Shown here in pieces: positions 14,653 to 49,492 of a stretch of 55,991 bases of DNA. Made by a program: the position numbers and the translations under genes. The notes beneath the pieces are model-generated. The model made no database searches and was not told the origin of the DNA. It saw only the letters and a program-made list of their open reading frames with translations. Numbering within the stretch: position 1 is the first letter of the stretch; every line of letters starts with the position of its first letter. Origin of the DNA: Bacillota bacterium (GTDB lineage: Bacteria; Bacillota; Clostridia; Peptostreptococcales; Anaerovoracaceae); NCBI GenBank assembly GCA_017432345.1, contig JAFRJI010000032.1:1-55991 (forward strand), written 5' to 3'.

Positions 14653-14880
14653 ATGAGAGAAACAGTTCTTGAAATTCTGGAAGAGCTCAGAGAAGACGTT
14701 GATTTTGAAAACGAAACGAAACTGGCGGATGACCGTATCTTATCCTCCCTGGACATCGTTTCTATCGTTGGGAAATTCAACGATGAATTTGACATCGAGA
14801 TCTCCATCGAAGATCTGGAGCCGGAAAACTTTAATTCTGTCGACGCGATGGTCGAACTGATCACCAGAGTACAGGAATAA
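14653..14880 (+). CDS. Acyl carrier protein, DltC-like
   Basis: This 75-residue carrier protein is closely similar to the DltC-like ACP at 42273. The 4'-phosphopantetheine serine is most likely Ser32 in ILSSLDIV. The Asp that normally precedes it in the DSL motif is Ser31 here. It should carry an activated acyl or aminoacyl group to the MBOAT protein encoded 19 bases downstream. No DltA homologue is adjacent; the nearest AMP-ligase is the convergent gene at 22302-23774. SD AGGAGAAAG. Confidence 0.87.
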   Translation: MRETVLEILEELREDVDFENETKLADDRILSSLDIVSIVGKFNDEFDIEISIEDLEPENFNSVDAMVELITRVQE

Positions 14881-14899
14881 GGAGAGAGACCGTCTCAGT

Positions 14900-16492
14900 A
14901 TGGCTTTTACATCAATCAATTTTCTAATTTTTGCATTGGCCGCAATGATCTTGTATTATTGCGTGCCTTTGAATTGGAGATGGCTGGTTCTGCTTGTTGC
15001 CAGCTATGCTTTTTATTTGATTTCCAGCCCGAAAACGTTCGTGTTCATTCTAGCGACAACGATCGTGACTTTTTTTGGCGGGAAACAGATCGGCGCGTAC
15101 AACAGCACCTATAAAGCATACATGGATGAGCACAAGAAAGAACTGTCCAGTCAGGAGAGAAAGGCAGCAAAGGCAGCGAATCAGAAGAAAAAACGAAAGA
15201 TCGTTGCCATTGTCCTCATCATCGACTTCGGCATCTTGGCCGTGCTCAAGTACTTCCGGTACTATCTGCAGGCGATGGGACTGTTCGATACCGGAATGCT
15301 GCTGATTCCGCTGGGCATCTCTTTTTATACCTTCCAGTCGGCAGCCTACATCATCGACCTGTACCGGAGCAAGATGGACGCCGATACGAACATCGCGAAA
15401 TTCGCCCTGTTCACGTCCTTCTTCCCGCAGATCATCCAGGGACCGATCCCGCGGCACAACGAACTGGCCAAGCAGCTCTACGAAGGCCACCGGTTCGAGT
15501 TCAACAACCTGACCTCCGGGGCGCAGCTCTTCCTGTGGGGCTTCTTTAAGAAACTGATCATCGCGGACCGGATCGCCATCCCATGCGCGCAGATATTCGA
15601 TAACTACACGGATTATTCCGGCGGGATCGTTTTCGCCTCTTTCGTGTTCTACACGATCCAGATCTACGCGGACTTCAGCGGCGGCATCGACATCGCCCGC
15701 GGCGTTGCAAAGTGCTTAGGTATTAACATGCCTTTGAACTTCATGCGTCCGTATTTCGCCGAAAGCCTTTCGGAGTTTTGGCGCAGATGGCACATGTCAC
15801 TGAGTTTCTGGTGCAGAGACTATATCTTTTATCCGATCGCTATCTCAAAATTCTTCGGTCGGCTGGGCACGAGCCTGCGGAAGACTCTCGGCAATCATGT
15901 GGGGCAGCTGTTCCCGGTCATCGTAGCGCAGTTCGCCACCTTTATCACGATCGGCATCTGGCACGGTGCGGAATTCAAGTACGTAGCATATGGCCTGTAC
16001 AACGGCACCATCATCGTTCTGGGGCTTTTGCTGGAACCGCTCTTTGTCAAGTGGGCCGAAAAACTGCACATCAACCGCAGGAGCAACGGGTGGAAGTATT
16101 TCGGAATCGTCCGGACGTTCGTCATCGTTTCCTTCGGACGCGCCTTCCCGAAAGCGGCCTCGTTCTCCGTGGCGGTTTCCATGATCATTTCCGTATTCCG
16201 GCCTGGCCATGGACCATCGTTCGCAGATGCGATCATGGATATCGGCATGTCGGATATCGATTATATGATCCTGATCGGAGCCTGCATCGTCTGGTTCCTG
16301 ATCAGTTTATATGAAGAAAAATACTTTAAGAAAAATGGCGGGGACGGAACCGAATCGTTCCGGGAGATGCTGGGGAACAAACCGGCGACTCTCCGTTGGA
16401 CGATCCTTCTGCTCGGCTTTGCAGCAGTTCTGGCTCTGGGCGTTTACGGTCCTGGTTACGATGCCAGCGCATTTATTTACAGAGGATTCTAA
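14900..16492 (+). CDS. MBOAT family O-acyltransferase (DltB/AlgI-like)
   Basis: This is a polytopic membrane protein of 530 residues. The MBOAT signature RRWHMSLSFW carries His298, and GIWHGAE carries the catalytic His355. DltB-type proteins move an acyl or D-alanyl group from a carrier protein through the membrane to a surface polymer. The preceding ACP gene supports that role here. The YfhO gene starts at the very next base after its stop. It is paralogous to the MBOAT protein at 39079. The group transferred (D-Ala, acetyl or other acyl) is not determined. Confidence 0.9.
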   Translation: MAFTSINFLIFALAAMILYYCVPLNWRWLVLLVASYAFYLISSPKTFVFILATTIVTFFGGKQIGAYNSTYKAYMDEHKKELSSQERKAAKAANQKKKRKIVAIVLIIDFGILAVLKYFRYYLQAMGLFDTGMLLIPLGISFYTFQSAAYIIDLYRSKMDADTNIAKFALFTSFFPQIIQGPIPRHNELAKQLYEGHRFEFNNLTSGAQLFLWGFFKKLIIADRIAIPCAQIFDNYTDYSGGIVFASFVFYTIQIYADFSGGIDIARGVAKCLGINMPLNFMRPYFAESLSEFWRRWHMSLSFWCRDYIFYPIAISKFFGRLGTSLRKTLGNHVGQLFPVIVAQFATFITIGIWHGAEFKYVAYGLYNGTIIVLGLLLEPLFVKWAEKLHINRRSNGWKYFGIVRTFVIVSFGRAFPKAASFSVAVSMIISVFRPGHGPSFADAIMDIGMSDIDYMILIGACIVWFLISLYEEKYFKKNGGDGTESFREMLGNKPATLRWTILLLGFAAVLALGVYGPGYDASAFIYRGF

Positions 16493-19198
16493 ATGACAGG
16501 AAGACCATTGGAGAAGACAAGGAATCTTTGGATCACTTATACGATCATGTTCTGCCTTCTGATGATAGGTATTTTTCTGTTGTTCATTCTGCAGCATCGG
16601 ACGTTCGTCAATCTATCGGACGCCTATGATCAGGGCTATTTCTGGACGACCGAGATGAAACAGAATCTCCAGGCGCTCTTTGCCGGAGATGGTTATCCGA
16701 TGTGGTCATGGGCCAGAGGAACCGGGATGGACCTGAAACCGCCGATCGATCCGTTCCTCATGATCGCGGCATTGTTCCCGATCGGTTACATCGAACTGGG
16801 ATATACGGTCGCGATCGTTTTGCGTATGTACTGCGCTGGACTGGCCTTCCTGGCTTTTGGCGGGGAAGTCGGCATGGCGGGCTACAACCGCCTAATGGGC
16901 GCAATCTGTTACGTATTCGCCAGCTGGTCGATCAACGTGGCTCTGATACAGGGCCAGTTTATCGACATCCTGATCCTGTTCCCGCTGCTCGTCATGGGCG
17001 TGGATAAGATCTACAAAGGCAAAACGCCGGCGTTGTTCATCGCCGTTGTCGGTTTCAGCGTCGCGATCAACTACTACCTGGCGTTCATGTCAGCCATCGC
17101 CATCGTCATTTACATCCTTCTGAGATATTTCCACTACATGGATCGATTCAGCCTGCCGGAGTACCTTTCGTACATCATCCGGTTTGTTGTGTTTGGGCTG
17201 ATCGGCATCATGACTGCGGCGTTCTTTGTCCTGGTCACCATCAAGACCCTGATGGGAGCAACGACTGGAAGCGGTTCGGAAGCCGTGGCGTTCTTCTCCG
17301 ACATGGACGATCTGATGAAATACCCACTGAAACTGCTCTCCCAGGGATATAGTTTCACTTACGGATACATCGGACTGCCGATTCTGGCGCTGCTGATCCT
17401 GCCGATTGGACTGCGCAAGCTTTCGATCCGCAATACCTACGTCATCATGGCCATCATCCTGTTCGTGTTCTCACTGATGCCGGTCATGAGCTCGGTCATG
17501 AACGGATTCAGCTATGTGACCACCCGGTGGTACTTCACCTATATCTTCTTCCTCGTATGGACGTCAATGGAATGCCTCGACTTCGAACAGCTGAAGAAAT
17601 GGAGCAATCTGGCCATCATGGGCGCGTGGTGGGCCGTCCTTCTGATCTGCATTCCGGGCTTTGCCTATATGGATAAGATCGGTCATTTCGACGGACGGGG
17701 CGGAGCGCTGTTTGTCTGCGGGAACCTGGCAGCCGGGTTGGTGCTTTTGATCGTCTTCGCGCTGGGCAGGAGCCGGATCATGCCGGAGAGAGCCGGCAAG
17801 GTGGCGGTCGCGGTCATTTCGGTCGCGGTGCTGGTCGGCGGATGGAACTGCGCGATCCGCAGCGATACCGACAACTTCTGCAAGGTCGGCCAGATCAACA
17901 ATGAACTGGAAGCATCCACGCAGAGAGCCGGCGCGATGATCGAAGACGACGGGTTCTACCGCATCGATCAGGTCGACGGCATCAATATCCATCACAATGC
18001 CGGACAGCCGGCTAACGAGAACATCTGGTGGGGAACCAACACCCTGTATTCGTATGACTCCAAGACTCCGGCAAGTCTCTTGGAATTCAATAAGCTAGTC
18101 GGCAACAACTACGGCTATTCCAAGCGCGTCTACGTCCTGTCGAACGGAAACCGGATGGGACTGGACTACCTTTATGGCGTCAAGTATTTCCTGGGGGATG
18201 ACACCAAGAACGGAACCGAGGGATCGGACGGGTATGCCGGCTATGGCTTCTCCTACAAGGAGCAGCTGGACGGCGTCAATATTTTTGAAAACAAATACGA
18301 CCCAGAGCTGGGGTTCGTATATGATAAATTCATTTCCCGCAGCGAGTTCCTGAAGCTCAGCCGTCTGCAGCGGGAACAGTCTCTGTTGCAGGCCATCGTG
18401 CTGGAGGACGAGACCTGCGGAAATCGGACATACGGCCAGGAGGTGACGGCGGAGGACATCGAAACGGACATCAAGACGATTCCGTATGAGATCATCGAGA
18501 CCGACGGCGTTACATTTGACGGGAACAGCTTCTACGCCGAAAAGGAAGAAGCATCCTTCAAGCTCTTCGTGAGCGGCGTCGTGGACAGCCAGCTGATCGT
18601 GTCCTTTGACAACCTGCAGCGGCTGGATGAAGACGGCGACCCGAAGGGTAACTTCTACATCAGCTGCTCCAACGGAACGAAGTCCGCGGCGGCCAACAAT
18701 TATGAAAACAATCAGACCATCGAAGGGATCGTGGATTTCGACTTGAACATGGGAGCCTATGAATACTACAGCGGCGCGCTGAAGATCCACCTGCCGAAAT
18801 CCGGCCAGTACACGTTCGACCGAATGTACGTATCGGCCATGAGCACCGAAAACTACGACCACTACGCGGCGGAGCGGGAAAAGGGCCGCTATAAAGTCAG
18901 CAAGTACACTTCTGACACAGTCAAAGGGAAGGTGAACGCCGCCCGCGAAGGCTATCTGTTCATTTCCATGCCGAACCACTCCAACTGGGATGTGTACATC
19001 GACGGAAAGGAAGCGCAGAAGGTCGAGCCGGCCAACATCGCCTTTTTTGCCGTCCATATCGACAAGGGAAAGCATGAAGTCGTGCTGAAATACGATTATA
19101 CGGCGCGGTGGATCGGCCTGATCATTTCACTGGCGGGCATCGTGCTCGCGCTGGGCATTTGCCTTATCATGAGATGGAGAAGGAAACGTTCGAGATGA
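16493..19198 (+). CDS. YfhO family membrane protein (GT-C-like glycosyltransferase)
   Basis: This 901-residue protein has about 12 membrane spans in the first 450 residues, then a large extracytoplasmic domain and a last span near the C-terminus. This is the architecture of YfhO, which in Bacillus and Listeria transfers a sugar from undecaprenyl phosphate onto teichoic acid outside the cell. The early DAYDQ segment and the WSWARGTGMD region match the acidic first loop of these GT-C-like proteins. It overlaps the next gene by 4 bases (ATGA). The GT2 at 10731 is a plausible supplier of the lipid-linked sugar. Confidence 0.85.
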   Translation: MTGRPLEKTRNLWITYTIMFCLLMIGIFLLFILQHRTFVNLSDAYDQGYFWTTEMKQNLQALFAGDGYPMWSWARGTGMDLKPPIDPFLMIAALFPIGYIELGYTVAIVLRMYCAGLAFLAFGGEVGMAGYNRLMGAICYVFASWSINVALIQGQFIDILILFPLLVMGVDKIYKGKTPALFIAVVGFSVAINYYLAFMSAIAIVIYILLRYFHYMDRFSLPEYLSYIIRFVVFGLIGIMTAAFFVLVTIKTLMGATTGSGSEAVAFFSDMDDLMKYPLKLLSQGYSFTYGYIGLPILALLILPIGLRKLSIRNTYVIMAIILFVFSLMPVMSSVMNGFSYVTTRWYFTYIFFLVWTSMECLDFEQLKKWSNLAIMGAWWAVLLICIPGFAYMDKIGHFDGRGGALFVCGNLAAGLVLLIVFALGRSRIMPERAGKVAVAVISVAVLVGGWNCAIRSDTDNFCKVGQINNELEASTQRAGAMIEDDGFYRIDQVDGINIHHNAGQPANENIWWGTNTLYSYDSKTPASLLEFNKLVGNNYGYSKRVYVLSNGNRMGLDYLYGVKYFLGDDTKNGTEGSDGYAGYGFSYKEQLDGVNIFENKYDPELGFVYDKFISRSEFLKLSRLQREQSLLQAIVLEDETCGNRTYGQEVTAEDIETDIKTIPYEIIETDGVTFDGNSFYAEKEEASFKLFVSGVVDSQLIVSFDNLQRLDEDGDPKGNFYISCSNGTKSAAANNYENNQTIEGIVDFDLNMGAYEYYSGALKIHLPKSGQYTFDRMYVSAMSTENYDHYAAEREKGRYKVSKYTSDTVKGKVNAAREGYLFISMPNHSNWDVYIDGKEAQKVEPANIAFFAVHIDKGKHEVVLKYDYTARWIGLIISLAGIVLALGICLIMRWRRKRSR

Positions 19199-22284: not shown

Positions 22285-22306
22285 AAAGCTTAAGAAAAAG
22301 CTTAAG
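22283..22306. repeat. Perfect tandem 12-bp duplication at a convergent junction
   Basis: AAAAAGCTTAAG occurs twice in direct succession, spanning the stop codons of two convergent genes. On the minus strand each unit ends in a T5 run after a small CTTAAG hairpin, so it may serve as a weak terminator for the AMP-ligase gene. Confidence 0.6.
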
Positions 22307-23774: not shown

Positions 23775-23805
23775 GGTTTTAGTCTCCCTTTATTGATACC
23801 CCAAC

Positions 23806-23840: not shown

Positions 23841-23854
23841 TCAATGGAAATCTA

Positions 23855-23883: not shown

Positions 23884-23912
23884 ATAAGGATAGAAAGGTG
23901 AGGGAAAAAGCC

Positions 23913-37050: not shown

Positions 37051-37914
37051 ATGAAAGGTATCGTACTTGCAGGAGGCAAAGGCACCAGACTGTATCCGAT
37101 GACAAAAGCAATATCCAAACAGCTGCTGCCGATCTATGACAAACCGCTGGTCTACTATCCGATCTCGGTCCTGCTCCTGGCAGGCATCCGGGAGATCCTG
37201 ATCATTTCGACACCGGAGGACATCAACGATTACAAACTGCTGCTCGGGGATGGTCATAAGATGGGCGTTTCCTTCAGCTACAAGATCCAGGACAAGCCGC
37301 GGGGCCTGGCCGACGCTTTCATCCAGGGCGAGGAATTCATCGGTGACGACAGTGTCTGTCTGGTCCTGGGCGACAACGTGTTCTATGGACAGGACCTGAC
37401 CAAGATCCTCAACGAAGCGAAAAACCGCGAAAAAGGGGCGACCGTATTCGGCTATCCAGTCAAGGATGCCAGAGAATTCGGCGTCGTGGAATTCGATCAA
37501 GATAAAAACGTTATTTCCATCGAAGAGAAGCCGGAGCATCCGAAGTCGAACTTCGCGATCCCGGGACTGTACTTTTACGACAACGACGTGATCAGGATCG
37601 CCAAGACCATCAAGCCGTCGGCGAGAGGGGAACTGGAGATCACATCGGTCAACAACGCCTATCTGGAGAAGGGGCTTTTGAAAGTCACTCTGATGGGCCG
37701 TGGAATGGCATGGCTGGATACGGGAAATCCGGACGGCATGCTGAAGGCTGCGGAATTCGTCGAGACGGTTCAGTCCAGACAGGGCTTTTACATCGCCTGC
37801 CTGGAAGAGATCGCGTGGCGCAGGGGCTTCATCGATGACGCGCAACTGGTCGCATTGGGAGAAGAGTTGAAGATGACAGCGTACGGACAGTACTTGCTGT
37901 CGCTGGTAAAGTAG
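37051..37914 (+). CDS. rmlA: Glucose-1-phosphate thymidylyltransferase
   Basis: RmlA makes dTDP-glucose from dTTP and glucose-1-phosphate. The N-terminal nucleotide-binding [11 protein letters not shown] (9-19), LGDNVFYG, the VEFD and EEKPEHPKS segments and the 287-residue length are all typical. The start lies two bases after the previous stop, with AAGGAGAAG as SD. Together with RmlB (44860) and WecE (5849) it completes the route to dTDP-4-amino-4,6-dideoxygalactose. No RmlC or RmlD is in the window. Confidence 0.95.
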
Positions 37915-37924: not shown

Positions 37925-39064
37925 ATGACAGGGAAAAAGGTGAAAAAGGTAAAAAAGTTAATCACAGGTAACACGATCCGGCTGGTCATCTTCGTGCTGG
38001 TCATCGGCGTCGCCGTCGGAGTCTGCGCGAAGATGTTCACGTTCACGGATGCGGAGCATTCGAACAAAATCTTTGAGCAGTTCTACGCGCAGGATACGAA
38101 CACGGTCGACTGCGTCTATTTCGGATCCAGCGCGACCCAGAGAGGATGGGTCGTTCCGGTCGCATTCCACGACGAAGGAGTGGCGTCCTATTCGCTTTCC
38201 TGCGGAACGCAGCCGTTCGTATTGACACGGTATCTGATGGCAGAGGTCCAGAAGACGCAGGATCCGAGGCTGTTCATCGTGGAACTGAGGGGCGTCTGCA
38301 AAGGGCCGGATGATCTATGGGACGTGGCGGTCCGGCGGATGCTCGACAACATGAAGCCATCCAAGAACAAGTACGACGCGATCCAGGCGGTCCTCAATTA
38401 CGCATCCCAAGGCAAGAACGGGATCGACGAGAGCGGTTTGTCCTATTACTTCCCGCTGCTCAAATACCACAGTCTCTGGAATCCGAGCAAGAAACCGCAT
38501 TACGGCGGCGTGGATTATTACAAAGGCTATGCCCTTGAACCGAAAGCTGTTTTCCGCGTAACGGACATCCATCCGTTCAAATACAATGATGATACGATCC
38601 CGCTGGCGCCGGCGAGCGAGGCCGCGCTGAAGGATCTGCTGGACTACTGCGATTCGATCAAGGCGAAAGTCCTGTTCGTGATCTCGCCGTATGAAGCCAG
38701 CGAAGGCGGCATGGGGAAACTGAACACCGCGAAGAACATCGTCGAGGAACGCGGCTACGAATGCCTGAACTTCCTGCCGGCGAAAAAGCGGGAAGCGATC
38801 GGTTTATCGGACGACACCTGTTACTATAACCGGGAACATTTGAATATGTACGGTTCGATCAAATACACCGACTACCTGTCCAAGTACATCAAGAAGCACT
38901 ACAATATTCCGGACCGGCGCAACGACAGCCGGTACGACAGCTGGAACGAAGAATACGAACGGCTGACAGCGAACTTGGACGGAAAGTATGCCGACCTGAA
39001 CAAAGAAATGAAAGAAAAGATCAAGAAAATCAACAAGAAGAATAAGAAGAATAAGAAAAAATAA
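37925..39064 (+). CDS. Membrane-anchored SGNH/DltD-like protein
   Basis: A single N-terminal membrane span (about 17-36) is followed by an extracellular SGNH-like domain. VYFGSSATQ (Ser68/69) is the likely nucleophile block, and NREHLNMYG supplies a His near residue 300. It resembles DltD and AlgJ-type partners of MBOAT transferases, and the MBOAT gene follows after 14 bases, supporting a role in acyl or D-alanyl transfer to the polymer. The C-terminus is a striking Lys/Asn tail (about 18 residues) that would lie outside the cell. It is paralogous to the protein at 48371. Confidence 0.8.
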   Translation: MTGKKVKKVKKLITGNTIRLVIFVLVIGVAVGVCAKMFTFTDAEHSNKIFEQFYAQDTNTVDCVYFGSSATQRGWVVPVAFHDEGVASYSLSCGTQPFVLTRYLMAEVQKTQDPRLFIVELRGVCKGPDDLWDVAVRRMLDNMKPSKNKYDAIQAVLNYASQGKNGIDESGLSYYFPLLKYHSLWNPSKKPHYGGVDYYKGYALEPKAVFRVTDIHPFKYNDDTIPLAPASEAALKDLLDYCDSIKAKVLFVISPYEASEGGMGKLNTAKNIVEERGYECLNFLPAKKREAIGLSDDTCYYNREHLNMYGSIKYTDYLSKYIKKHYNIPDRRNDSRYDSWNEEYERLTANLDGKYADLNKEMKEKIKKINKKNKKNKKK

Positions 39065-39078: not shown

Positions 39079-40734
39079 ATGTCATTCACATCCTTTGCAT
39101 TTTTAATATTTGTCGCGGCAGTCGTGATCGTGTACTACGTGGTGCCGAAGAATTACCGCTGGATCGTGCTTCTGGTAGCGAGTTACACCTACTATCTGGA
39201 AGCAAGCGCGAAATCCTTCGTGTTCATCCTGTTCACGACCATCGTCACGTACTACGGCGCGCGTTACATCGAAGACGCGGAGAACAAGCATAAGCAGTAT
39301 CTGGCGGACAACAAGGGCGAAATCACCAAGGAAGAAAAGAAGGCTTCCAAAGAAGCCGCTGCCAAGCGCAAAAAGCGCATGCTGACGCTGATCCTTATCC
39401 TGGACTTCGGCATCCTCGTATGTCTCAAGTACTTCCGTTACTACATCGACGCGCTGGGGATCGAAGCGTTCAGTGCCATCACCGGCACCGTCCTGATCCC
39501 GTTGGGGATCTCGTTCTACACGTTCCAGTCAGCAGGCTATCTGTTCGACGTGTACCGCGGCAAAGTGGGGGCTGACCGCAGCCTGCCGAAATTCGCATTG
39601 TTCACATCCTTCTTCCCGCAGATCGTACAGGGACCGATCCTGCGTTACGACCAGCTGGCAGGGCAGTTGTATGAAGGGCACGATTTCCGATACAAGAATC
39701 TGGCCCACGGCGCGCAGCTCATGCTGTGGGGCTTCTTTAAGAAACTCGTTATCGCGGACCGCATCGGCACGCTGGTCGGCGAGGTCTACATCAACTACGA
39801 CCAGTACTCCGGCTGGCCGGTGATTCTCGCGATGTTCGGCTACGCGATCCAACTGTATATGGACTTCAGCGGTGGCGTTGACATCGCCAGAGGCGTGGCC
39901 CGGTGTATGGGCATCGATATGGCCAGGAACTTCCGTCGGCCGTACTTCGCCATCGACCTGACCGATTTCTGGCGGCGGTGGCACATCTCGCTCAGTTTCT
40001 GGACGCGAGACTACATCTTCTTCGCGGTGGCCATGTCCAGACCGATCGGCCGCTTCGGCAAGAAGTGCCGCAAAGTTCTGGGTGACCGTGTCGGCAAGCT
40101 GATCCCGGTCTTCATCGGACAGATCCTGGTATTCCTGACCATCGGTATGTGGCACGGCGCGGAACTGAAATACATCGCGTACGGCCTCTACAACGCGGCG
40201 ATCATCATCACCGGAATGCTGCTGGAACCGTATTTCGTGAAGTGGCTGGAGAAACTGCACATCAACCGCGAAGGAAAGGGCTGGACGGTCTTCCGGATGG
40301 TGCGGACGTTCTGCATCGTATCGTTCGGCCGGATCTTCTCCAACGGACAGTCCTTCAAAGCGAGCATCCACATGATGCGATCGATCTTCCGTCCGTATCA
40401 GGGCAAGTTCATCACGGCGTTCACGGCCTTCGCGCTGACGAAATGGGATTACGTCGTACTGTTCTTCGCGATCCTGATCGTGTTCTTTGTGAGCGTGATC
40501 CAGGAACGGCGCTACAACTACAAGAAAGCGCACGAAGGCGGCGGCGCGCAGATCATCGCCATGGTCGGGCAGGGCGCCGGCAAGGAGACCGACGCAGAGA
40601 TGCGCGAATTCATCGACGAAAAGGCTACCATCATCCGGTGGATCTTATACATCGCTCTGTTCCTGATCGTCCTGCTGTTTGGCGTTTATGGACCGAGCTA
40701 CGACCCGACCGTATTCATTTACAGAGAGTTTTAG
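39079..40734 (+). CDS. dltB: MBOAT family O-acyltransferase (DltB-like)
   Basis: This 551-residue polytopic membrane protein has RRWHISLSFW (His302) and GMWHGAE (His359), the MBOAT catalytic signature. It is clearly paralogous to the MBOAT protein at 14900. It is flanked by a DltD-like gene and by dltA and dltC, so this is the best candidate for a true Dlt-type export acyltransferase in the window. SD CCGGAG. The stop TAG overlaps the SD of dltA. Confidence 0.9.
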   Translation: MSFTSFAFLIFVAAVVIVYYVVPKNYRWIVLLVASYTYYLEASAKSFVFILFTTIVTYYGARYIEDAENKHKQYLADNKGEITKEEKKASKEAAAKRKKRMLTLILILDFGILVCLKYFRYYIDALGIEAFSAITGTVLIPLGISFYTFQSAGYLFDVYRGKVGADRSLPKFALFTSFFPQIVQGPILRYDQLAGQLYEGHDFRYKNLAHGAQLMLWGFFKKLVIADRIGTLVGEVYINYDQYSGWPVILAMFGYAIQLYMDFSGGVDIARGVARCMGIDMARNFRRPYFAIDLTDFWRRWHISLSFWTRDYIFFAVAMSRPIGRFGKKCRKVLGDRVGKLIPVFIGQILVFLTIGMWHGAELKYIAYGLYNAAIIITGMLLEPYFVKWLEKLHINREGKGWTVFRMVRTFCIVSFGRIFSNGQSFKASIHMMRSIFRPYQGKFITAFTAFALTKWDYVVLFFAILIVFFVSVIQERRYNYKKAHEGGGAQIIAMVGQGAGKETDAEMREFIDEKATIIRWILYIALFLIVLLFGVYGPSYDPTVFIYREF

Positions 40735-40743
40735 GAGACGAAA

Positions 40744-42255: not shown

Positions 42256-42272
42256 GCGAAAGGAGACCCAAA

Positions 42273-42500
42273 ATGGAAGAACTGCTTAGGATCATGAGTG
42301 AAGTAAGACCGGATATCGATTTCGAAAACGAAAAGCATCTGATCGATAATGAAATGCTCGACTCGCTGGATATCGTCGCCATCGTAACCGATGTCAACGA
42401 CGAATTCGACGTCGAGATCAACGTAAACGATCTGCTTCCTGAGAATTTCAACTCTGCAGAGGCTCTTTTTGAACTGATCACAAAACTTCAGTATGAATAA
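42273..42500 (+). CDS. dltC: D-alanyl carrier protein-like ACP
   Basis: This 75-residue carrier protein has a normal phosphopantetheine site, MLDSLDIV, with Ser31. It lies 17 bases after dltA and its end overlaps the next gene by 8 bases. It should accept the aminoacyl group from DltA and deliver it to the MBOAT protein at 39079. It is very similar to the ACP at 14653, so cross-talk between the two systems is possible. Confidence 0.92.
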   Translation: MEELLRIMSEVRPDIDFENEKHLIDNEMLDSLDIVAIVTDVNDEFDVEINVNDLLPENFNSAEALFELITKLQYE

Positions 42501-43584
42501 TCTGTTCCGAATCGCTGTGGGGATCATGCGGGGCGTGTACGCTCTGATCAAGTGTTTCCCGCAGAAAGATCGTGTCGCGATTCTGTCGAGGCAGAACCGG
42601 ACGCCGTCCATCGACATCCGCCGGCTGACCGAATGCATGCGGCAGCGGTATCCCCGGACCGAATGCGTCGTTCTCGTACGGATGATCGACAGCTGGACCT
42701 ATGTGTTCCATATGGTCCGGCAGATGTACTATATCGCTACATCCAGAGTCGTTGTGCTGGATGGGTTTTGCATTGCGGCGAGCGTCCTGAAACACAAGAA
42801 GGGAACGACCATCATCCAGATGTGGCATTCCTCCGCCGCGATCAAACAGTTCGGCTATCAGACCATCGGCAAGCCGGCCGGTCACAGCAAAGAGATGGCC
42901 GAGATCATGTCGATGCACCGGAACTACGACTACGTCCTGTGTCCGAGCTGGGCGACCGGCGAGCTGTTCTGCAAAGGCTTCGATATCTCGCCTGTCAAAC
43001 TGAAATACTATGGACTGCCGCGGCTAACAGAGATCCAGAAAGATGACACCGACTGGCAGCAGGAAGCGAGAAAGCGCATCATGGGCGACGACGGGAGAGA
43101 ACTCGTTCTGTACGCGCCGACCTTCCGCAAAGGCAAAGAAGTCGATGCCAAGGGACTGATCCAGGCTCTGGATCAGGAACGGTTCCGCCTGGTGATCAAG
43201 CCACATCCGCTGGACAAGCTGGACGCGGGCGAAGAATATGTTTGCCAGGAATACAGCTCCCAGCAGCTGCTGCGCGTCTGCGACCGTATCATTACGGATT
43301 ATTCGGCGCTGGGCGTGGAAGCATCCATCCTCGGCAAACCGATCTACTATTACGTCTATGACATCGACGAATACATCGAGGAGACCGGATTGAACGTCGA
43401 TCCTCTCAAGGAGATGCCGGGATGTTCGTCGAGAGACGGGGCGGAACTGGCCGATATGATGAAACAACCGTATGATTACGAACAGCTGCAGCGGTTCCGG
43501 GACAAGTACATCGAAGTCCCGACGGATCACTGCGCGGAACGCATCGCCGACTTTATCGAGGAGTGCCTGCATGGAAACGATTAA
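42493..43584 (+). CDS. CDP-glycerol-type glycerophosphotransferase (TagB-like)
   Basis: This is a single GT-B transferase domain of 363 residues. The motifs are MWHSSAAIKQFG (equivalent of the HG loop), YAPTFRK, KPHPLD and IITDYSALGVEAS. TagB-like enzymes add the first glycerol-phosphate to a lipid-linked primer. It overlaps dltC by 8 bases and the next gene by 14, so it is tightly coupled to both. Donor and acceptor cannot be fixed from sequence. Confidence 0.88.
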   Translation: MNNLFRIAVGIMRGVYALIKCFPQKDRVAILSRQNRTPSIDIRRLTECMRQRYPRTECVVLVRMIDSWTYVFHMVRQMYYIATSRVVVLDGFCIAASVLKHKKGTTIIQMWHSSAAIKQFGYQTIGKPAGHSKEMAEIMSMHRNYDYVLCPSWATGELFCKGFDISPVKLKYYGLPRLTEIQKDDTDWQQEARKRIMGDDGRELVLYAPTFRKGKEVDAKGLIQALDQERFRLVIKPHPLDKLDAGEEYVCQEYSSQQLLRVCDRIITDYSALGVEASILGKPIYYYVYDIDEYIEETGLNVDPLKEMPGCSSRDGAELADMMKQPYDYEQLQRFRDKYIEVPTDHCAERIADFIEECLHGND

Positions 43585-44863
43585 AAAGCATTTGCGAAAC
43601 TTCCTGAAAAAGCACGCCCACCTGCGGCTGTTCGTCCGCAAGGTCAAATGGCGTGTGGAGGAACAGGAATATAACAAGACGGCGAAGGGGACCGAGATCG
43701 ATGAGAAACTGGTCCTGTTCGAGACGTTCATGGGGCGGCAATACGGATGCAACCCGAAAGCCATCTATGAATACATGATCTCCGATCCGGCCTTTGACGA
43801 CTACCGGCTCGTCTGGTCGTTCTTCGATCCGCAAGCAAAGAAAGCGCAGTTCTCTGCGCTGCAGCGGGCGGAGGTCGTGGAGGTCAAGACCAGAGCATAC
43901 TACGAGATCTGCGCACGGGCCAAATACATCGTGACGAATTCCGCGCTGAACTACCGGATCCAGAAGCGGCCGGGACAGGTCTTTTTGCAGACATGGCACG
44001 GGACGCCGCTGAAGCGTCTGCGCTGCGACATCGAAGCGGAAAAGGGCAACGTCAACAACACCTTAAATGAAATAAAGATCAAAAATGACATGGACGTCGT
44101 GCGGTACGACCTGTTCTTATCGCCGTCGCCATTTGCTACGGATAAATTCATCAGCTCCTTCAACATGAAGGAGCTTGGGATCGAGAACATCGTCCGCGAA
44201 ACGGGATATCCGCGGAACGATCTGTTGTTCCATTTCACGGAGGAAGACGTGGAAGAGCAGAGACGCCAGCTGAACATCCCGGCGGGCAAGAAAGTGATCC
44301 TGTACGCGCCGACGTTCCGGGATAACGAACACGACGGCGCGGGCTACACCTACGATGTGCATTTGGATTTCGACCGGCTGCAAAGGGAACTGGGAGACGA
44401 ATATGTGATCCTGTTCCGGGCCCACTATTTCGTGGCCAACCGGTTCGACTTCGGGAAGTATCCGGGTTTCGTCATCGACGCGTCGAAACTGGACGACATC
44501 ACGCCGCTGTACATCATTTCGGATGTGCTGGTCACGGACTACTCCAGTGTATTCTTTGACTATGCCAACCTGAAGCGTCCGATGCTGTTCTACATGTACG
44601 ACCTCGACGATTACGCAGAAGGGATCCGGGGATTCTACTTCAGCATCGATGAAATACCGGGGCCGAAGATCCGAACCGAGGACGAATTGATCCGGTGGAT
44701 CAAAGACCTGGAAGGGGAGCCGTACGGAAAACAGTATTTTGACAAATACGGAGATACATTTGAGCGTTTTGCAGAGAAATTCGCACCGCTGGAAGACGGA
44801 CGGGCTTCCGAACGGGCGGCGAGCGAGCTCATACGAGCAGGACGGGAGGAAACACAGAAATGA
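43571..44863 (+). CDS. CDP-glycerol-type glycerophosphotransferase (TagB/TagF-like)
   Basis: This is a 430-residue GT-B transferase with TWHGTPLKRLRCD, YAPTFRDNE, an FRAHYF segment in place of the usual HP, and VTDYSSVFFDYANL. The start is taken at ATG 43571; an upstream in-frame start lies deep in the preceding gene. It overlaps rmlB by 4 bases. Together with the gene before it, it would supply two polyol-phosphate transfer steps next to the Dlt set. Confidence 0.88.
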   Translation: METIKKHLRNFLKKHAHLRLFVRKVKWRVEEQEYNKTAKGTEIDEKLVLFETFMGRQYGCNPKAIYEYMISDPAFDDYRLVWSFFDPQAKKAQFSALQRAEVVEVKTRAYYEICARAKYIVTNSALNYRIQKRPGQVFLQTWHGTPLKRLRCDIEAEKGNVNNTLNEIKIKNDMDVVRYDLFLSPSPFATDKFISSFNMKELGIENIVRETGYPRNDLLFHFTEEDVEEQRRQLNIPAGKKVILYAPTFRDNEHDGAGYTYDVHLDFDRLQRELGDEYVILFRAHYFVANRFDFGKYPGFVIDASKLDDITPLYIISDVLVTDYSSVFFDYANLKRPMLFYMYDLDDYAEGIRGFYFSIDEIPGPKIRTEDELIRWIKDLEGEPYGKQYFDKYGDTFERFAEKFAPLEDGRASERAASELIRAGREETQK

Positions 44864-45879
44864 AATATTTAGTGACAGGCGGAGCCGGGTTCATCGGCGC
44901 GAATTTCGTCTTTTACATGCTGCAGGAGCATCCGGATGATGAAATCGTATGCTACGACGCGCTGACTTACGCCGGCAATCTGGAAACACTGGAATCCGTC
45001 ATGGATCATCCGAAGTTCCGGTTCGTCAAGGGAGATGTGGCGGACCGCGAAGCGGTGTTCCGGCTTTTTGCAGAAGAAGGATTCGATGTGGTCGTCAACT
45101 TCGCGGCGGAGTCCCACGTGGACCGTTCCATTGAAGATCCGGGCGTTTTTCTGAAGACGAACATTCTGGGAACGCAGGTGCTCATGGACGCAAGCAGAGA
45201 GTACGGCGTTGCGCGGTTCCATCAGGTCGGGACCGATGAAGTCTACGGCGATCTGCCGCTGGACCGGCCGGATCTGTTCTTCACGGAGGATATGCCGGTC
45301 ACGGCGTCCAGCCCGTATTCCGCGTCCAAAGCATCGGCGGATCTGCTGGCAATGGCTTACCACAGGACCTACGGACTGCCGGTCACCATCAGCCGCTGCT
45401 CGAACAATTACGGACCGTACCAGTTCCCGGAAAAGCTGATTCCGCTGATGATCGCCAACGCGTTGGCGGACAAGGATCTTCCGGTGTACGGCACCGGCGA
45501 GAACGTGCGGGACTGGCTGTATGTGGAAGACCACTGCCGCGCCATTGACGGAATCCTGCAGAACGGCCGCGTCGGCGAGATCTACAACATCGGCGGACAC
45601 AATGAGAAATCGAATCTCGAAGTGGTCAAGATCATCCTGCAGCAGCTGGGCAAACCGGAGAGCCTGATCACCTTTGTGGGCGACCGCAAAGGTCACGATC
45701 TCCGCTACGCCATCGATCCCGCGAAGATTCACGGGGAGATCGGATGGCTGCCGGAGACCAAGTTTGAAAACGGCATCAAAGCGACGATCCAGTGGTATCT
45801 CGACCATGAAGATTGGTGGAAGAACATCATCAGCGGCGAGTACCAGCAGTATTACGAAAAAATGTACGGAAACAGATAA
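44860..45879 (+). CDS. rmlB: dTDP-glucose 4,6-dehydratase
   Basis: RmlB converts dTDP-glucose to dTDP-4-keto-6-deoxyglucose. The NAD motif GGAGFIGANF (6-15), GTDEVYGDLP and the active-site YSASK are present, and 339 residues is the usual length. Its product is the substrate of WecE. It overlaps the upstream transferase gene by 4 bases. The absence of rmlC and rmlD next to it argues against rhamnose as its end product here. Confidence 0.95.
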   Translation: MKYLVTGGAGFIGANFVFYMLQEHPDDEIVCYDALTYAGNLETLESVMDHPKFRFVKGDVADREAVFRLFAEEGFDVVVNFAAESHVDRSIEDPGVFLKTNILGTQVLMDASREYGVARFHQVGTDEVYGDLPLDRPDLFFTEDMPVTASSPYSASKASADLLAMAYHRTYGLPVTISRCSNNYGPYQFPEKLIPLMIANALADKDLPVYGTGENVRDWLYVEDHCRAIDGILQNGRVGEIYNIGGHNEKSNLEVVKIILQQLGKPESLITFVGDRKGHDLRYAIDPAKIHGEIGWLPETKFENGIKATIQWYLDHEDWWKNIISGEYQQYYEKMYGNR

Positions 45880-45881: not shown

Positions 45882-46691
45882 ATGAGAACACTGATCCAAC
45901 TCATAAAAGAGAATATCATCCACCGCGAACAGATGTGGAACTTGGCGAAAGCGTTCCAGAAAAAGAGGTACAAGGGATCCGATTTCGGAGCGATGTGGGC
46001 ATTCGTCAAGCCGACGATGTATATCGTCGTCTTTTACGTTGCCATTTCCATCGGGTTCAAGAGCTCCAAGAATATCCCGGGGCTGATCTGCCCGTATTTC
46101 GTCTGGCTGGCCATCGGGATGATTGCGTTCTTTTATATGCGTGACATGATCCTGAACGGGGCGTCCTGCTTCCGCCGGTATCCGGCTCTGGTCTCCAAGG
46201 CCAAGTACCCGGTCAGCACGCTGCCGACTACGGTCTGCACGTCCTACATGCTGGTGCATTTCGGCATGCTCGCCATCGGGTTCGCCGTCAGCATTATTTT
46301 CGGATGCTTCCCGAGCGTCTACTGGCTCCAGATTCCATTTTACATGCTGCTGATGTACATCATGTCATTCTTCTGGAGCATCTGCACGGGGTTGATCTCC
46401 GTCGTATTCCGGGATTTTTATAATTTCCTGCAGGTCGTGAACCAGGCCGTATTCTGGCTGTCCGGGATCCTGTTCGACATCAACCGGCTGGACCCGTCGA
46501 TGCAGAAGGTCTTTCTGTTCAATCCGATCTCCTATATCGTAGAGGGATACCGGAACGCGGTCTGCCGCCACATCTGGTTCTGGGAAGAACCGGAAAAGCT
46601 GGGATACTTCATGCTGGTGCTTTTGTTCATGGCGGTGCTGGCGCTGATAATGTATAAGAAACTGATGAAGAGAATTCCGGATGTGATTTAA
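45882..46691 (+). CDS. tagG: Teichoic-acid/polysaccharide ABC exporter permease
   Basis: This ABC-2 type permease of 269 residues has about six membrane spans. It is of the TagG/Wzm group that exports lipid-linked wall polymers. The N-terminal cytoplasmic helix and the KRYKGSDFGAMWAFVKP segment (conserved coupling region) are recognisable. The start is ATG 45882, two bases after rmlB; the upstream in-frame extension is inside rmlB. The partner ATPase follows with one base between, but its catalytic residues are lost. Confidence 0.9.
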   Translation: MRTLIQLIKENIIHREQMWNLAKAFQKKRYKGSDFGAMWAFVKPTMYIVVFYVAISIGFKSSKNIPGLICPYFVWLAIGMIAFFYMRDMILNGASCFRRYPALVSKAKYPVSTLPTTVCTSYMLVHFGMLAIGFAVSIIFGCFPSVYWLQIPFYMLLMYIMSFFWSICTGLISVVFRDFYNFLQVVNQAVFWLSGILFDINRLDPSMQKVFLFNPISYIVEGYRNAVCRHIWFWEEPEKLGYFMLVLLFMAVLALIMYKKLMKRIPDVI

Positions 46692-46692
46692 T

Positions 46693-47463
46693 ATGGGAAA
46701 TAAAGTTATCCAAGTAAATAACGTTACAAAAAAATTTAATCTGTATAAGAAAGACCTGCAAAAGATCTTCTGCGTGCTGTTCGGCAAAAAACCGCCGGAA
46801 GTCCTGGTCGCGCTGGAAGATGTGTCGTTCGAGATCGCGAAGGGCGAACGCGTCGCGCTGCTTGGCCTGATGGGATCCGGACGTTCGACGCTGATCAGCA
46901 TCTCGGCAGGGATCATGTATCCATCCAAGGGAACCGTCAAGGTCCACGGCAGGACCAACGCCATGATCAGCGTAAAGGCGGGGCTGGAGAAGGATTTTTC
47001 CTGTCGCGAGAACGTCTACCTCAAAGGAAATGTGGTGGGGCTTCCGAAGGAAGTGATCGATGAGCACATTGATGAGATCCTGGAGTTCGCGGAACTGGAA
47101 GACTATGCGGACCTGCCGCTGAAGCGGGCGCCGAAAAGCGCCTCGTCCATGATTTCCATTGCGGTCCACGTGCTGATGGATTGCGACCTTCTGATCATCG
47201 ACAATGCCATCAAGGGAGGCGGAAAGTATTCCAAGGAAAAGTGCGAGGAGAAGCTGAAGAAATACATCGAAGACCATCCGGACATGGCGGTGTTCGTTGT
47301 AGCGACACAAGGAAAATTCGTGCGGGAGATCTGTTCCAGGGGAATCGTTCTGGAACAGGGCAAGGTCACCTTTGACGGGCCTTTCACAGACGCCGTCAAA
47401 CTGCACAGAGAATTGTTGAATAAAATCGATAAGGGGCAAACCGAAACAGACAAGGAAGATTAA
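46693..47463 (+). CDS. tagH: TagH-like ABC ATPase with degenerate catalytic motifs
   Basis: This 256-residue protein has the fold signature of the Wzt/TagH exporter ATPases (for example RENVYLKG in the region after the Q-loop). However, the catalytic sites are changed. The Walker A Lys is Arg64 (GSGRST), and the signature SSGM segment reads APKSASSM. The Walker B glutamate is Asn171 (LLIIDNA), and the switch His appears to be Thr205 (VVATQ). The frame is open and has no stop codons, so it is an intact gene with a probably ATPase-dead product. It may be structural, or may pair with an active ATPase encoded elsewhere. Confidence 0.88.
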   Translation: MGNKVIQVNNVTKKFNLYKKDLQKIFCVLFGKKPPEVLVALEDVSFEIAKGERVALLGLMGSGRSTLISISAGIMYPSKGTVKVHGRTNAMISVKAGLEKDFSCRENVYLKGNVVGLPKEVIDEHIDEILEFAELEDYADLPLKRAPKSASSMISIAVHVLMDCDLLIIDNAIKGGGKYSKEKCEEKLKKYIEDHPDMAVFVVATQGKFVREICSRGIVLEQGKVTFDGPFTDAVKLHRELLNKIDKGQTETDKED

Positions 47464-47469
47464 AGGGTT

Positions 47470-48381
47470 ATGGATTATATCAAAGCGATTGCGGATGTCC
47501 ACAGCATTTCTGTGGCCGCGGAAAATTTAGGGATATCACAGCCCGCGCTCAGCGCCCACCTGAAGAAAAAGGAACAGGAGCTGAACGCGATGATTTTTGA
47601 CCGGAGCAAACAGCCTTTGCAGTTGACCGAGGCAGGGAAGGCCTATCTGGAATACATCGACCAGTCCGCCGCGTTGGAGAGAAAACTGCACCAGAGGCTG
47701 AATGACATAGAAGGGCTGAAGACCGGGAAGCTGACCGTTGGAGGAGCCAGTTTTATTAACGTATCCTATCTTCCAAAGGCGGTAAAGGTGTTCAGTGAAC
47801 ATTATCCGGACGTTGAGATCGAAGTCATGGACGGAAAGATTCCGGAGATTACGACCGCGGCATGGAATGGCCTGCTGGATGTGTTCATTACGCCAACCAA
47901 CGATGATCCGGAGCGGTTCCACTATGAGGAACTATTGGAAGAGACCATCTGCCTGGCGGTTCCTGCCGACTGGGAAATCAACCAGTCTCTGGGAGGCAGT
48001 CAGGAAGAAGCGAAGGTCCTGACAAAAGAGGACTTTCAGCGTCTCTGTGAGTATCCGTTCGTCGTGCTCAATAAAAACCAGGATATCGGGAGAAGGATGG
48101 AAGCGCTGTTCCAGCATTTCGGCTGCCGGCCGGAACGCGTGATCAAAGCGGAACAGACATTATCTACCATAGCGATGACCATTTCCGGTGCCGGGATCTC
48201 GTTGGTATCAAAAGACAGTCTTGAGCACCTGACGATGCCGGGGAAGCCGATTCTCTACATTGCAGAGGAGGATTTCTGCCGGCGGAAATTGTATGTCGCA
48301 TATCCGAAGAGCCAATACCTTTCCAATGCGGCCGCAGCGTTCATCGATGTTTTGAAGGGAGTCAATCAGCGTGAAGCATAA
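47470..48381 (+). CDS. LysR-family transcriptional regulator
   Basis: An N-terminal helix-turn-helix (ADVHSISVAAENLGISQPALS) is followed by the LysR substrate domain (about 88-295), 303 residues in all. The first few residues of a typical LysR N-terminus seem to be missing, so the start codon at 47470 gives a slightly short first helix. It lies six bases after tagH and overlaps the next gene by 11 bases, so it is part of the same operon. It may regulate this locus; a palindrome of LysR type lies before the ACP gene at 14653. Confidence 0.87.
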   Translation: MDYIKAIADVHSISVAAENLGISQPALSAHLKKKEQELNAMIFDRSKQPLQLTEAGKAYLEYIDQSAALERKLHQRLNDIEGLKTGKLTVGGASFINVSYLPKAVKVFSEHYPDVEIEVMDGKIPEITTAAWNGLLDVFITPTNDDPERFHYEELLEETICLAVPADWEINQSLGGSQEEAKVLTKEDFQRLCEYPFVVLNKNQDIGRRMEALFQHFGCRPERVIKAEQTLSTIAMTISGAGISLVSKDSLEHLTMPGKPILYIAEEDFCRRKLYVAYPKSQYLSNAAAAFIDVLKGVNQREA

Positions 48382-49492
48382 AGGCAGAAACATTATAATA
48401 GGATCCATCATCTTCCTGCTGCTTGCCTCGCTGATCGGCATTTACTTTAACAAGGTATTCAGCATGGGTGATAACAACGCGAACCGGCAGACCTTCAAGG
48501 CGTTCTATGCGGAGGATAAAGACACGATCGACATGGTCTATTTCGGGACCAGTGCGTCCAATCGTTACTTTATCAATCCGAAGGCGTTCCACGATCAGGG
48601 AATCAGTTCCTTTACCATGGCGACGATGGGAATGCCTCTGTTTTTCGTGCCGACATTGATGAAGGAAGTCGATAAGACGCAGGATCCATCCCTGTATGTG
48701 ATCGAGCTGCGCTGGACCCTCAAAGAACGCGAGCTGGTGACGGACGCGCACATCCGGCGTGTCACGGATAACATCCGCTCCTTTGGCGACAAAAACGCGG
48801 CCATCGACAGAGCCTTTGCGTTCATGGACGGAAGCACCGGGATGCTGGGCGATGTCACGGACAAAAAAATAGAATATCTGATCCCGCTGATCAAATATCA
48901 CGGGCGGCTGACACAGCACGAAATGACGCCGGGCGACTTCAAGCTGACCAGTTCCAAGAACAAGACGAAGGGGTACGTTCTGAGCAAGAGCACCACCAAA
49001 CAGGTGAACCAGTTCATGTCCCGGCTCACGGATGAAAGAGGGTCTCTTTCAGAAGAGGCGGAGCAGGTCCTGAACGAGCTGCTGGATTATTGCGATCAGC
49101 TCCCGGACAGCAAGCAGGTTCTGTTCGTTCTTTCCCCGTATTCCGTTAAGAAGAGCCAGATGCCGAAGTTCAACACGGCGCTGGATATGGTCACCGAGAG
49201 AGGCTATCCGGCGATCAACTTCAATACGCCGGAAATGTATGAGGAACTGGACATCGACTGGGATCATGATTTTTATAACAGCATGCATGTAAATTACATC
49301 GGCGCGGAGAAATACACGAATTACCTGGCCGATTACATTGCCGATCATTACGATCTGGCGGATCACCGGGGTGACCCGAAATACGCCAGCTGGGAAGACG
49401 CGTACAAGGTCTATCAGAATTTTGTAAAAGATGGGATCAAGACCATCGGGCACAAGGATAAACTCGGCGGGGAGGTGACATGGATCAAATGA
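48371..49492 (+). CDS. Membrane-anchored SGNH/DltD-like protein, second copy
   Basis: An N-terminal membrane span (about 8-27) is followed by an extracellular SGNH-like domain with VYFGTSASN (Ser61) and a C-terminal DFYNSMHVNYIG segment supplying Asp and His. It is a full-length paralogue of the DltD-like protein at 37925, without the lysine tail. Start GTG, overlapping the LysR gene. No MBOAT gene is adjacent, so it may partner with the MBOAT protein at 14900, which has no DltD of its own; this is inference. Confidence 0.8.
   Translation: MKHKGRNIIIGSIIFLLLASLIGIYFNKVFSMGDNNANRQTFKAFYAEDKDTIDMVYFGTSASNRYFINPKAFHDQGISSFTMATMGMPLFFVPTLMKEVDKTQDPSLYVIELRWTLKERELVTDAHIRRVTDNIRSFGDKNAAIDRAFAFMDGSTGMLGDVTDKKIEYLIPLIKYHGRLTQHEMTPGDFKLTSSKNKTKGYVLSKSTTKQVNQFMSRLTDERGSLSEEAEQVLNELLDYCDQLPDSKQVLFVLSPYSVKKSQMPKFNTALDMVTERGYPAINFNTPEMYEELDIDWDHDFYNSMHVNYIGAEKYTNYLADYIADHYDLADHRGDPKYASWEDAYKVYQNFVKDGIKTIGHKDKLGGEVTWIK

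Follow-up and report, generated by a model that had tools for sequence, protein, structure and literature searches.

Two putative sister transmembrane acylation modules in a mosaic teichoic-acid-type island of a Clostridia genome

Why would a single polymer locus carry two sets of Dlt-like decoration genes? This question is raised by a 55,991-base stretch of DNA from a Bacillota bacterium (Clostridia; Peptostreptococcales; Anaerovoracaceae; assembly GCA_017432345.1, contig JAFRJI010000032.1), hereafter the window, which is the entire contig C17 of a 1.8-Mb genome (G000; 51 contigs, 81.8% complete). Genes were checked as open reading frames (ORFs) and with Pfam, and equivalogs were called with the curated NCBIfam cut-offs. 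All genes named in an earlier note on this DNA were recovered as ORFs at their coordinates; an AMP ligase on the minus strand (22302-23774), absent from that note's gene list, is also a real ORF, with PF00501 and PF13193. We consider it probable that the window holds a mosaic teichoic-acid-type island with two complete sister transmembrane acylation modules, sets A and B, working as proposed below. Their genes and the immediate neighbors of set A are as follows.

14653..14880, plus strand: set A carrier protein (ACP-A); PF00550, 23 bits, cut-off 20.8
14900..16492, plus strand: set A MBOAT (MBOAT-A) with fused tail FIYRGF; PF03062, 55 bits
22302..23774, minus strand: set A AMP ligase (LigA), CoA-ligase/aryl-acid-ligase type; PF00501 and PF13193
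47470..48381, plus strand: LysR-type regulator; PF00126/PF03466
48371..49492, plus strand: set A DltD-like SGNH-type protein (DltD-A) with Ser61 and His306; no Pfam or NCBIfam match
51027..53081, plus strand: AAA-VWA pair, conserved site marker beside DltD-A
37925..39064, plus strand: set B DltD-like SGNH-type protein (DltD-B), paralogue of DltD-A
39079..40734, plus strand: set B MBOAT (MBOAT-B) with fused tail FIYREF; PF03062
40744..42255, plus strand: set B DltA-like adenylation enzyme (DltA-B); PF00501, 216 bits
42273..42500, plus strand: set B carrier protein; PF00550, 26 bits

Set B is a collinear run of DltD-like, MBOAT, DltA-like and carrier genes (37925-42500) followed by two Glyphos_transf proteins, as first described. 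Set A had to be redrawn. It had been composed of the carrier, the MBOAT, a YfhO gene and a double TagF gene, with the DltD-like gene at 48371 regarded as lone. We examined a genus sample of 49 metagenome-assembled genomes (MAGs), in which LigA was called at E 1e-60. LigA was present in 26 genomes, and MBOAT-A and DltD-A in 27 each. LigA occurred with MBOAT-A in 23 genomes and with DltD-A in 23 (Fisher p 5e-7 in both cases), and MBOAT-A with DltD-A in 24 (p 9e-8), these p-values being only a rough guide because genomes of one genus are related and not independent samples. The parts often lie within a few kilobases of each other: LigA was found 1.6 to 5.4 kb from MBOAT-A in 8 of the 11 genomes with both on a shared contig and 1.1 to 6.4 kb from DltD-A in 11 of 13, and ACP-A adjoins MBOAT-A in most genus loci examined. 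The parts of set A are thus ACP-A, MBOAT-A, LigA and DltD-A. The gene at 48371 is not lone; by co-occurrence and by its neighborhood in relatives it goes with set A.

Relatives also reveal the arrangement of these genes. The order carrier, MBOAT-A, LigA on the opposite strand, divergent LysR, DltD-A is found in loci L132 (G009), L154 (G041), L158 (G064) and L178 (G043), with the AAA-VWA pair following DltD-A in L132 and L178. LigA and LysR are divergent with 114 to 255 bp between match ends in L132, L133, L154, L158, L175, L178, L179 and L180; the gap is 0.5 to 2.8 kb in other loci (e.g., L149, L164, L176 and L183), and L186 and L188 have both genes on the same strand, in tandem. All 26 DltD-A loci (L104-L129) are closer to DltD-A of the window (46 to 74%) than to DltD-B (31 to 39%). 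An AAA gene lies 1.0 to 2.9 kb from DltD-A in 20 genomes, including G000, and is matched (E 1e-60) in 43 of the 49, a few of them only via a 63 to 66% paralogue.

Among other records, a locus labelled Eggerthellales (L022) carries carrier, MBOAT, LigA and DltD on a single strand, while one labelled Lachnospiraceae (L060) has MBOAT, DltD, carrier and LigA (35%). L171, from another family (G354), reads MBOAT, DltD, LigA, carrier, and L170, from another genus of the same family (G065; same contig as L049), reads carrier, Tag gene, LigA on the opposite strand, MBOAT, DltD. In an MBOAT tree of 114 rows, L022 falls in the A clade and L049, L171 and L060 fall in three other places. With partners from four or more MBOAT lineages, LigA is unlikely to be a neighbor by chance. 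LigA is rare across the class, being matched in 4 of 390 other genomes at E 1e-85. In L172 and L173, from two of these four, no MBOAT was present in the stretch examined, indicating that some LigA relatives do not serve such modules.

The idea that the two systems differ in chemistry gained support from their ligases, one an amino-acid-type adenylation domain and the other of CoA-ligase type. The set B ligase scores 296 to 301 bits with the NCBIfam DltA models, below their cut-offs of 476 and 560, and lies above the cut-off of the generic amino-acid adenylation model TIGR01733. Its pocket region matches DltA best (3fcc, 3dhv), and in alignment to DltA it keeps the amine-binding Asp of the A4 motif (Asp200). 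Ser273 replaces the Cys of the DltA F-C-G-E-V motif, which in DltA contributes to D-Ala selection. Judged by these positions, the substrate of set B is likely a small D- or L-amino acid, D-Ala being the default guess. D-Ser is reported to be the second-best substrate of Staphylococcus aureus DltA (PMC12071552).

LigA has H194-S195 where DltA has F-D, in alignment with the FH motif of 4-coumarate:CoA ligase (4CL). Asp was found at the A4 position in none of 23 LigA-type ligases (20 Ser, 3 Ala) and in 45 of 55 DltA-type ligases, as well as in the set B ligase itself. A structural model of LigA (pLDDT 86) gave MenE, EntE, 4CL and CahJ as nearest Foldseek neighbors, with E values of about 1e-43 to 1e-41 and 20 to 24% identity; all four are ligases of carboxylic or aryl acids, and EntE and CahJ load carrier domains. 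LigA-type and DltA-type ligases form two clean groups with 100/100 support (80-row tree, grouping by hidden Markov model [HMM] score, midpoint root). With Ser195 and a separate clade, set A does not have the DltA of a canonical Dlt system, and its ligase should, on these grounds, load a carboxylic acid without an alpha-amino group. With unrelated loading enzymes, the cell probably has two chemically different decorations for its wall, and sets A and B likely attach two different groups. Elsewhere, one Lachnospiraceae MAG (L068:3247-11581) has a DltA-type and a LigA-type ligase both upstream of a single carrier-MBOAT pair. Moreover, 10 of the 55 DltA-type ligases, including those of L155, L157, L159, L038, L051, L074, L029, L090 and L161, have Ser, Val or Ile in place of the amine-binding Asp, hinting at more non-amino acyl groups.

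Both MBOATs end in an FXYXXF hexapeptide, FIYRGF in MBOAT-A and FIYREF in MBOAT-B. In Dlt systems this hexapeptide closes a separate microprotein, DltX, and its Tyr receives the D-Ala that DltB takes from the carrier; PatA is an MBOAT that carries the hexapeptide on its own chain, where it is acylated. The acyl-Tyr shuttle is established for PatA and reported for DltX (PMC12148441). The tails of the window follow hydrophobic segments (448-466 and 497-515 in MBOAT-A; 456-474 and 518-536 in MBOAT-B) that lie beyond the WHG His, which is His 355 in MBOAT-A. No other ORF of at least 20 codons in the window ends in F.Y..F; the search for DltX was confined to the window. The only PDB sequence matches of MBOAT-A are the DltB structures 6bug and 8jem. 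With the DltB model TIGR04091 the two MBOATs score 163 and 174 bits, below the cut-off of 375, and they have an extra C-terminal part. MBOAT-A (26 rows) and MBOAT-B (3 rows) form sister clades, all 29 grouping together with an SH-aLRT value of 100 (quick method); sister MBOAT clades and separate ligase groups together indicate that the export part was duplicated or diverged while the front end differs. On the input side each set is therefore Dlt-like, with an AMP ligase and a carrier, while its shuttle is fused as in PatA. The set A carrier stands directly before MBOAT-A and the set B carrier within the same gene run as its MBOAT; both have PP-binding above the Pfam cut-off, and the set B carrier reaches 23.5 and 15.6 bits with the DltC models, below their cut-offs. 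An SSL carrier motif (versus DSL) was considered as a signature of set A and discarded as inconsistent, with ESL, DSF and DSM also present.

We then asked how far this combination extends, using the best 80 of 571 confirmed matches, mostly labelled Bacillota and found with search patterns that excluded the tail. Of 83 closed MBOAT ORFs in these 80 loci, 79 end in F.Y..[FY]; the exceptions are L038 and L051 (TIYAQF), L093 and L097. A carrier gene lies no farther than 3 kb from 44 of the 79 tailed MBOATs; in 39 of these cases there is also a ligase within 6 kb, and in 29 of the 39 a DltD-like gene as well. These counts are lower bounds because of contig ends, and the detection HMMs were built from this family. 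FIYRGF ends all 25 distinct A-type sequences, the window's included, and FIYREF both closed B-type relatives, so the two hexapeptides are possibly a cognate mark. G050 and G048 have a second MBOAT ending in FIYRGF (L182:11544-13115 and L168:5572-7119), with a DltD-like neighbor, near set A parts; no carrier or ligase was found near these second MBOATs. Since these carrier-less MBOATs belong to another lineage, the tail alone does not define the set. They also show that stacking of decoration modules within one island recurs. Both MBOATs found in G000 lie in the window.

The DltD-like proteins are paralogues with 33% identity in alignment. Neither has a Pfam, NCBIfam or PDB sequence match, and a profile of the family against PDB sequences at E 10 gave none either. 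The first six Foldseek matches of the DltD-A model (AlphaFold, pLDDT 90) are DltD chains of 6pfx, 7dxm and 3bma. Gly59, Ser61, His306, Asn308 and Gly311 are invariant in all 28 proteins compared. By context and predicted fold, these proteins may well work like DltD. G000 encodes a third DltD-like protein of 368 amino acids on contig C13 (L167:10948-12054), an orphan beside dnaG, rpoD, trmK, NIF3 and mnmA.

From gene content, co-occurrence, tails, clades and the presence or absence of the Asp, we infer catalysis, acyl identity, acceptor and order of events as follows. In each set, the AMP ligase would activate an acid and load it onto the set's own carrier protein. The MBOAT would take the acyl group from the carrier pantetheine to the Tyr of its own C-terminal FIYRxF tail, and the membrane-anchored DltD-like SGNH-type enzyme, with Ser61 and His306, would pass it to an extracellular polymer. 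The DltA-close ligase of set B would supply D-Ala or another small amino acid, and LigA a carboxylic acid that lacks an alpha-amino group. Set A would be the widespread module of the genus, and set B would have arrived with a variable polymer block that split set A.

The distribution of set B is narrower. DltA-B at 82% identity or more was found in 4 of the 49 genus genomes, and both sets together only in G000 and G017. In G017, one short contig holds the MBOAT-B end, DltA-B, the carrier and the subsequent Glyphos_transf genes, the second cut by the contig end. On L134 of the same genome, ACP-A, MBOAT-A, NlpC and RmlA stop at a contig edge; the window runs from NlpC-RmlA into set B, and adjacency of the two sets in G017 is possible. 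Set B is collinear in G001 and spread over two contigs in G011 (79 and 71% complete, respectively); neither LigA nor an A-type MBOAT was found in either of them. Genome RUG14658 (L021) has a collinear set B with 57 to 91% identity, followed by RmlB, DegT, YfhO and a double TagF; LigA was not found there at E 1e-60, and its MBOATs were not searched. DltD-B accompanies set B in G001, G011 and RUG14658. In 24 genus genomes there is LigA but no set B, and three genomes have set B but no LigA; the two sets are therefore independent modules, at times present in one genome. The AAA-VWA marker of G011 is about 5.5 kb away from set B. The earlier note had made its view depend on the two sets not lying in separate conserved loci of relatives. 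What we found is mixed: they are independently inherited modules, yet still modules of one polymer island, since set B (in G011) and DltD-A (in 20 genomes) are both near the AAA-VWA marker. In a Lachnospiraceae MAG (L064:8645-13376), a WecC-like dehydrogenase (63%) stands immediately before an MBOAT gene that is accompanied by a DltA-type ligase and a carrier; these two, at 58% and 73%, are much closer to their set B counterparts than the MBOAT is (38%).

The surrounding island contains the following genes.

5816..6976, plus strand: dTDP-4-amino-4,6-dideoxy-sugar transaminase (WecE-like); NF008687, 611 bits, cut-off 375
13589..13987, plus strand: TagD, glycerol-3-phosphate cytidylyltransferase; TIGR01518, 207 bits, cut-off 165
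16493..19198, plus strand: YfhO, GT-C glycosyltransferase; PF09586, 297 bits
19195..22284, plus strand: double Glyphos_transf (TagF-like), two PF04464 stretches; ORF from 19108, start probably ATG 19195
23898..26465, plus strand: Glyphos_transf domain 3; PF04464, 144 bits
26505..27671, plus strand: UDP-glucose 6-dehydrogenase (Ugd); NF011631, 607 bits, below cut-off 757
27698..30247, plus strand: Glyphos_transf domain 4; PF04464, 144 bits
30271..31914, plus strand: Glyphos_transf domain 5; PF04464, 142 bits
31914..33104, plus strand: NDP-aminosugar 6-dehydrogenase (TviB/WecC-like); TviB model, 446 bits, below cut-off 592
37051..37914, plus strand: RmlA; TIGR01207, 462 bits, above cut-off
42493..43584, plus strand: Glyphos_transf domain 6; PF04464, 159 bits
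43571..44863, plus strand: Glyphos_transf domain 7; PF04464, 352 bits; inner ATG by inspection, ORF from 43472
44860..45879, plus strand: RmlB, dTDP-glucose 4,6-dehydratase; TIGR01181, 491 bits, above cut-off
45882..46691, plus strand: ABC-2 permease in TagG-like position; PF01061, no NCBIfam match at 1e-15
46693..47463, plus strand: ABC ATPase, TagH-like; teichoic acid export models, 153 and 124 bits, below cut-offs

As reported earlier, there are seven CDP-glycerol-type transferase domains (2+1+1+1+1+1), in six proteins with ORFs from 19108, 23898, 27698, 30271, 42493 and 43472. The UDP-uronate and dTDP-aminosugar genes described as mixed in with the two sets are there at 26505, 31914, 37051 and 44860, while the transaminase at 5816 lies upstream of the interval that had been reported. 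Going by these gene families, the polymer could plausibly be built from glycerol-phosphate, one or two uronic acids and a dTDP-4-amino-4,6-dideoxy sugar. The suggestion of an undescribed type of wall polymer locus held only in part: TagD, TagF/B-type polymerases, a TagGH-like exporter and LCP ligases mark a wall teichoic acid locus and, with RmlAB and YfhO, make up an ordinary teichoic-acid repertoire; it is the architecture of the acylation modules that is unusual. YfhO at 16493 would serve transmembrane glycosylation with a GT2 such as that at 10731, and not acyl transfer; such a pair fits the transmembrane glycosylation systems reviewed in PMC8035078. Peptidoglycan-binding, Ig-like/fn3 or choline-binding-type repeat proteins are encoded at 8310-9536, 35673-37049, 49480-51012 and 54359-55984 and recur in the relatives' stretches with 37 to 62% identity.

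LigA and LysR are separated in the window by 23.7 kb (23775-47469). This block contains set B, five of the seven Glyphos_transf domains, the genes at 26505, 31914, 37051 and 44860 and the ABC exporter, and in relatives set A is surrounded by other genes; the block looks like a variable polymer cassette that was inserted into set A. In the 501 bases at each end of the block, no direct repeat longer than 8 nt and no inverted repeat longer than 10 nt was found, the mean longest shared word of shuffles being 8.6. Insertion scars at the ends were therefore rejected, as repeats were not beyond chance and only AT-rich palindromes appeared near 23.9 kb. A promoter and terminator scan of 13900-26600 gave counts close to the shuffled expectation.

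Several points weigh against two working modules. The acyl groups, the carrier loading and the acceptors are predictions from genes. The MAGs are incomplete, and the Fisher tests rest on non-independent genomes of one genus; LigA and MBOAT-A are on different contigs in 12 of the 23 genomes having both, and the A-type label of some MBOATs (e.g., in G053) is based on 54 to 59% identity to MBOAT-B alone. No carrier lies within 3 kb of 35 of the 79 tailed MBOATs, some of these loci being cut short. The fold similarity of DltD-A to DltD is weak (TM about 0.4, E 1e-4), and the DltD-like match in L060 is weak as well (30 bits). SGNH enzymes usually have an Asp three residues before the His; at this position, 303, 25 of the 28 DltD-like proteins have Asn. 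Finally, the structural neighbors of LigA include true CoA ligases (MenE, 4CL) beside aryl-carrier ligases (EntE, CahJ), so that LigA might make acyl-CoA.

This last point leads to a different account of set A, in which LigA makes acyl-CoA, MBOAT-A uses it directly as in Pat systems and the carrier is incidental. It agrees with the presence of MenE and 4CL among the fold neighbors and with the acyl-CoA-using systems in which fused shuttle tails have so far been described (PMC12148441). However, ACP-A is the regular neighbor of MBOAT-A in the genus, the LigA neighborhoods of L022, L060, L171 and L170 all include a carrier, set B likewise combines a carrier with a fused tail, and the carrier-less tailed MBOATs beside set A parts in G050 and G048 (L182, L168) look different; we therefore regard this account as unlikely. 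Less likely still is that the insertion split set A and left it a decaying, nonfunctional remnant. Its genes are indeed scattered over about 35 kb, with LigA 23.7 kb from its LysR, but all four ORFs are open, of full length and with the expected motif residues, and dispersal is also seen in G004, G007, G015 and G050, which keep LigA, MBOAT-A and DltD-A. We give just as little credence to the attachment of lactate or malate supplied by an LDH (3539-4507) and a LarA racemase-family gene (53100-54344), which lie at the two ends of the window. Four genomes (G004, G015, G021 and G058) have an LDH gene no more than 7 kb from DltD-A and LarA at most about 5 kb from the AAA gene, and across the genus LDH and LarA co-occur, sharing 16 of their 22 and 19 genomes (p = 2e-5). 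The LDH has Arg, as in its closest solved relative 1y6j, at a position which we take to discriminate between pyruvate and oxaloacetate. Neither gene is associated with LigA, however (p = 0.78 for LDH, with 15 of the 26 LigA genomes lacking it, and p = 0.38 for LarA), and a lactyl or malyl group on set A was dropped for this reason.

A much stronger contender, to which we give somewhat less than an even chance, is that the sets have two acceptors, one decorating lipoteichoic acid and the other wall teichoic acid, with no doubly decorated polymer. Sulfatase-family proteins (PF00884, which includes LtaS) of LtaS-like length, about 660 to 690 amino acids, are present in 45 of the 49 genus genomes, including G000, so that a lipoteichoic-acid-like polymer and hence two acceptors are possible; set A is also widespread, whereas set B travels with polymer cassettes. 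On the other hand, PF00884 membership is no proof of a lipoteichoic acid synthase, and ACP-A and MBOAT-A stand beside TagGH/Tag cassette genes in G007, G015, G045, G050 and G058, which favors the cassette polymer as the one that set A acylates. A hybrid polymer carrying both groups, as suggested in the earlier note, is no more than a possibility. Taking the two-module reading further, and only tentatively, we propose that one teichoic-type polymer may be decorated in parallel by two orthogonal machines with common export chemistry and exchanged front ends. B would attach an aminoacyl group and A an acyl group of non-amino type, perhaps aromatic or a short aliphatic one; each machine would have its own matching carrier, tail (FIYRGF or FIYREF) and DltD, which would prevent mixing, and both would belong to a third, carrier-fed and tail-fused MBOAT-SGNH class common in Clostridia. 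We hold this fuller proposal to be less likely than not.

What this would mean depends on how MBOAT-SGNH acylation has been classified. PMC12148441 (2025) sorts it into carrier plus DltX (Dlt) versus acyl-CoA plus fused tail (Pat/Alg/Wss), and its discussion describes carrier/AMP-ligase input and a fused shuttle as not occurring together. A carrier-fed fused-tail MBOAT is not described in the available portions of PMC12148441, PMC11035591, PMC5541007, PMC8035078 and PMC12071552, and neither such an MBOAT nor two dlt systems in one locus appeared among the literature matches listed, which consist of titles and abstract starts and leave most subscription journals uncovered. Carrier and fused tail together recur (44 of 79 tailed MBOATs), and this pattern predicts that an acyl carrier supplies the group which forms an acyl-Tyr in the MBOAT tail. 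From the swapped front end one may suspect that walls are decorated with acids besides D-alanine; this would matter for surface charge, for resistance to peptides and for recognition by the immune system.

Compared with known systems, both sets resemble Dlt (DltA, DltB, DltC, DltD and DltX) in having an AMP ligase, a separate carrier, an MBOAT and a DltD-like SGNH-type protein, and set B also in a ligase that keeps the Asp of DltA. They differ in that the shuttle hexapeptide is fused to the MBOAT with extra C-terminal helices, whereas Dlt uses a separate DltX, in that the DltD-like proteins have no detectable sequence match to DltD and, for set A, in a ligase that is not DltA-like. LigA shares fold and class with EntE, CahJ, MenE and 4CL but is tied to an MBOAT-DltD export module and not to a siderophore nonribosomal peptide synthetase or CoA metabolism. 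With the O-acetylation systems PatAB, AlgIJ and WssHI both sets share an MBOAT with a fused FXYXXF tail and a separate SGNH-type enzyme; those systems are described as carrier-less and acyl-CoA-using (PMC12148441), whereas a carrier and an AMP ligase of its own belong to each set here. The modules are thus a variant of MBOAT-SGNH acylation rather than a new category.

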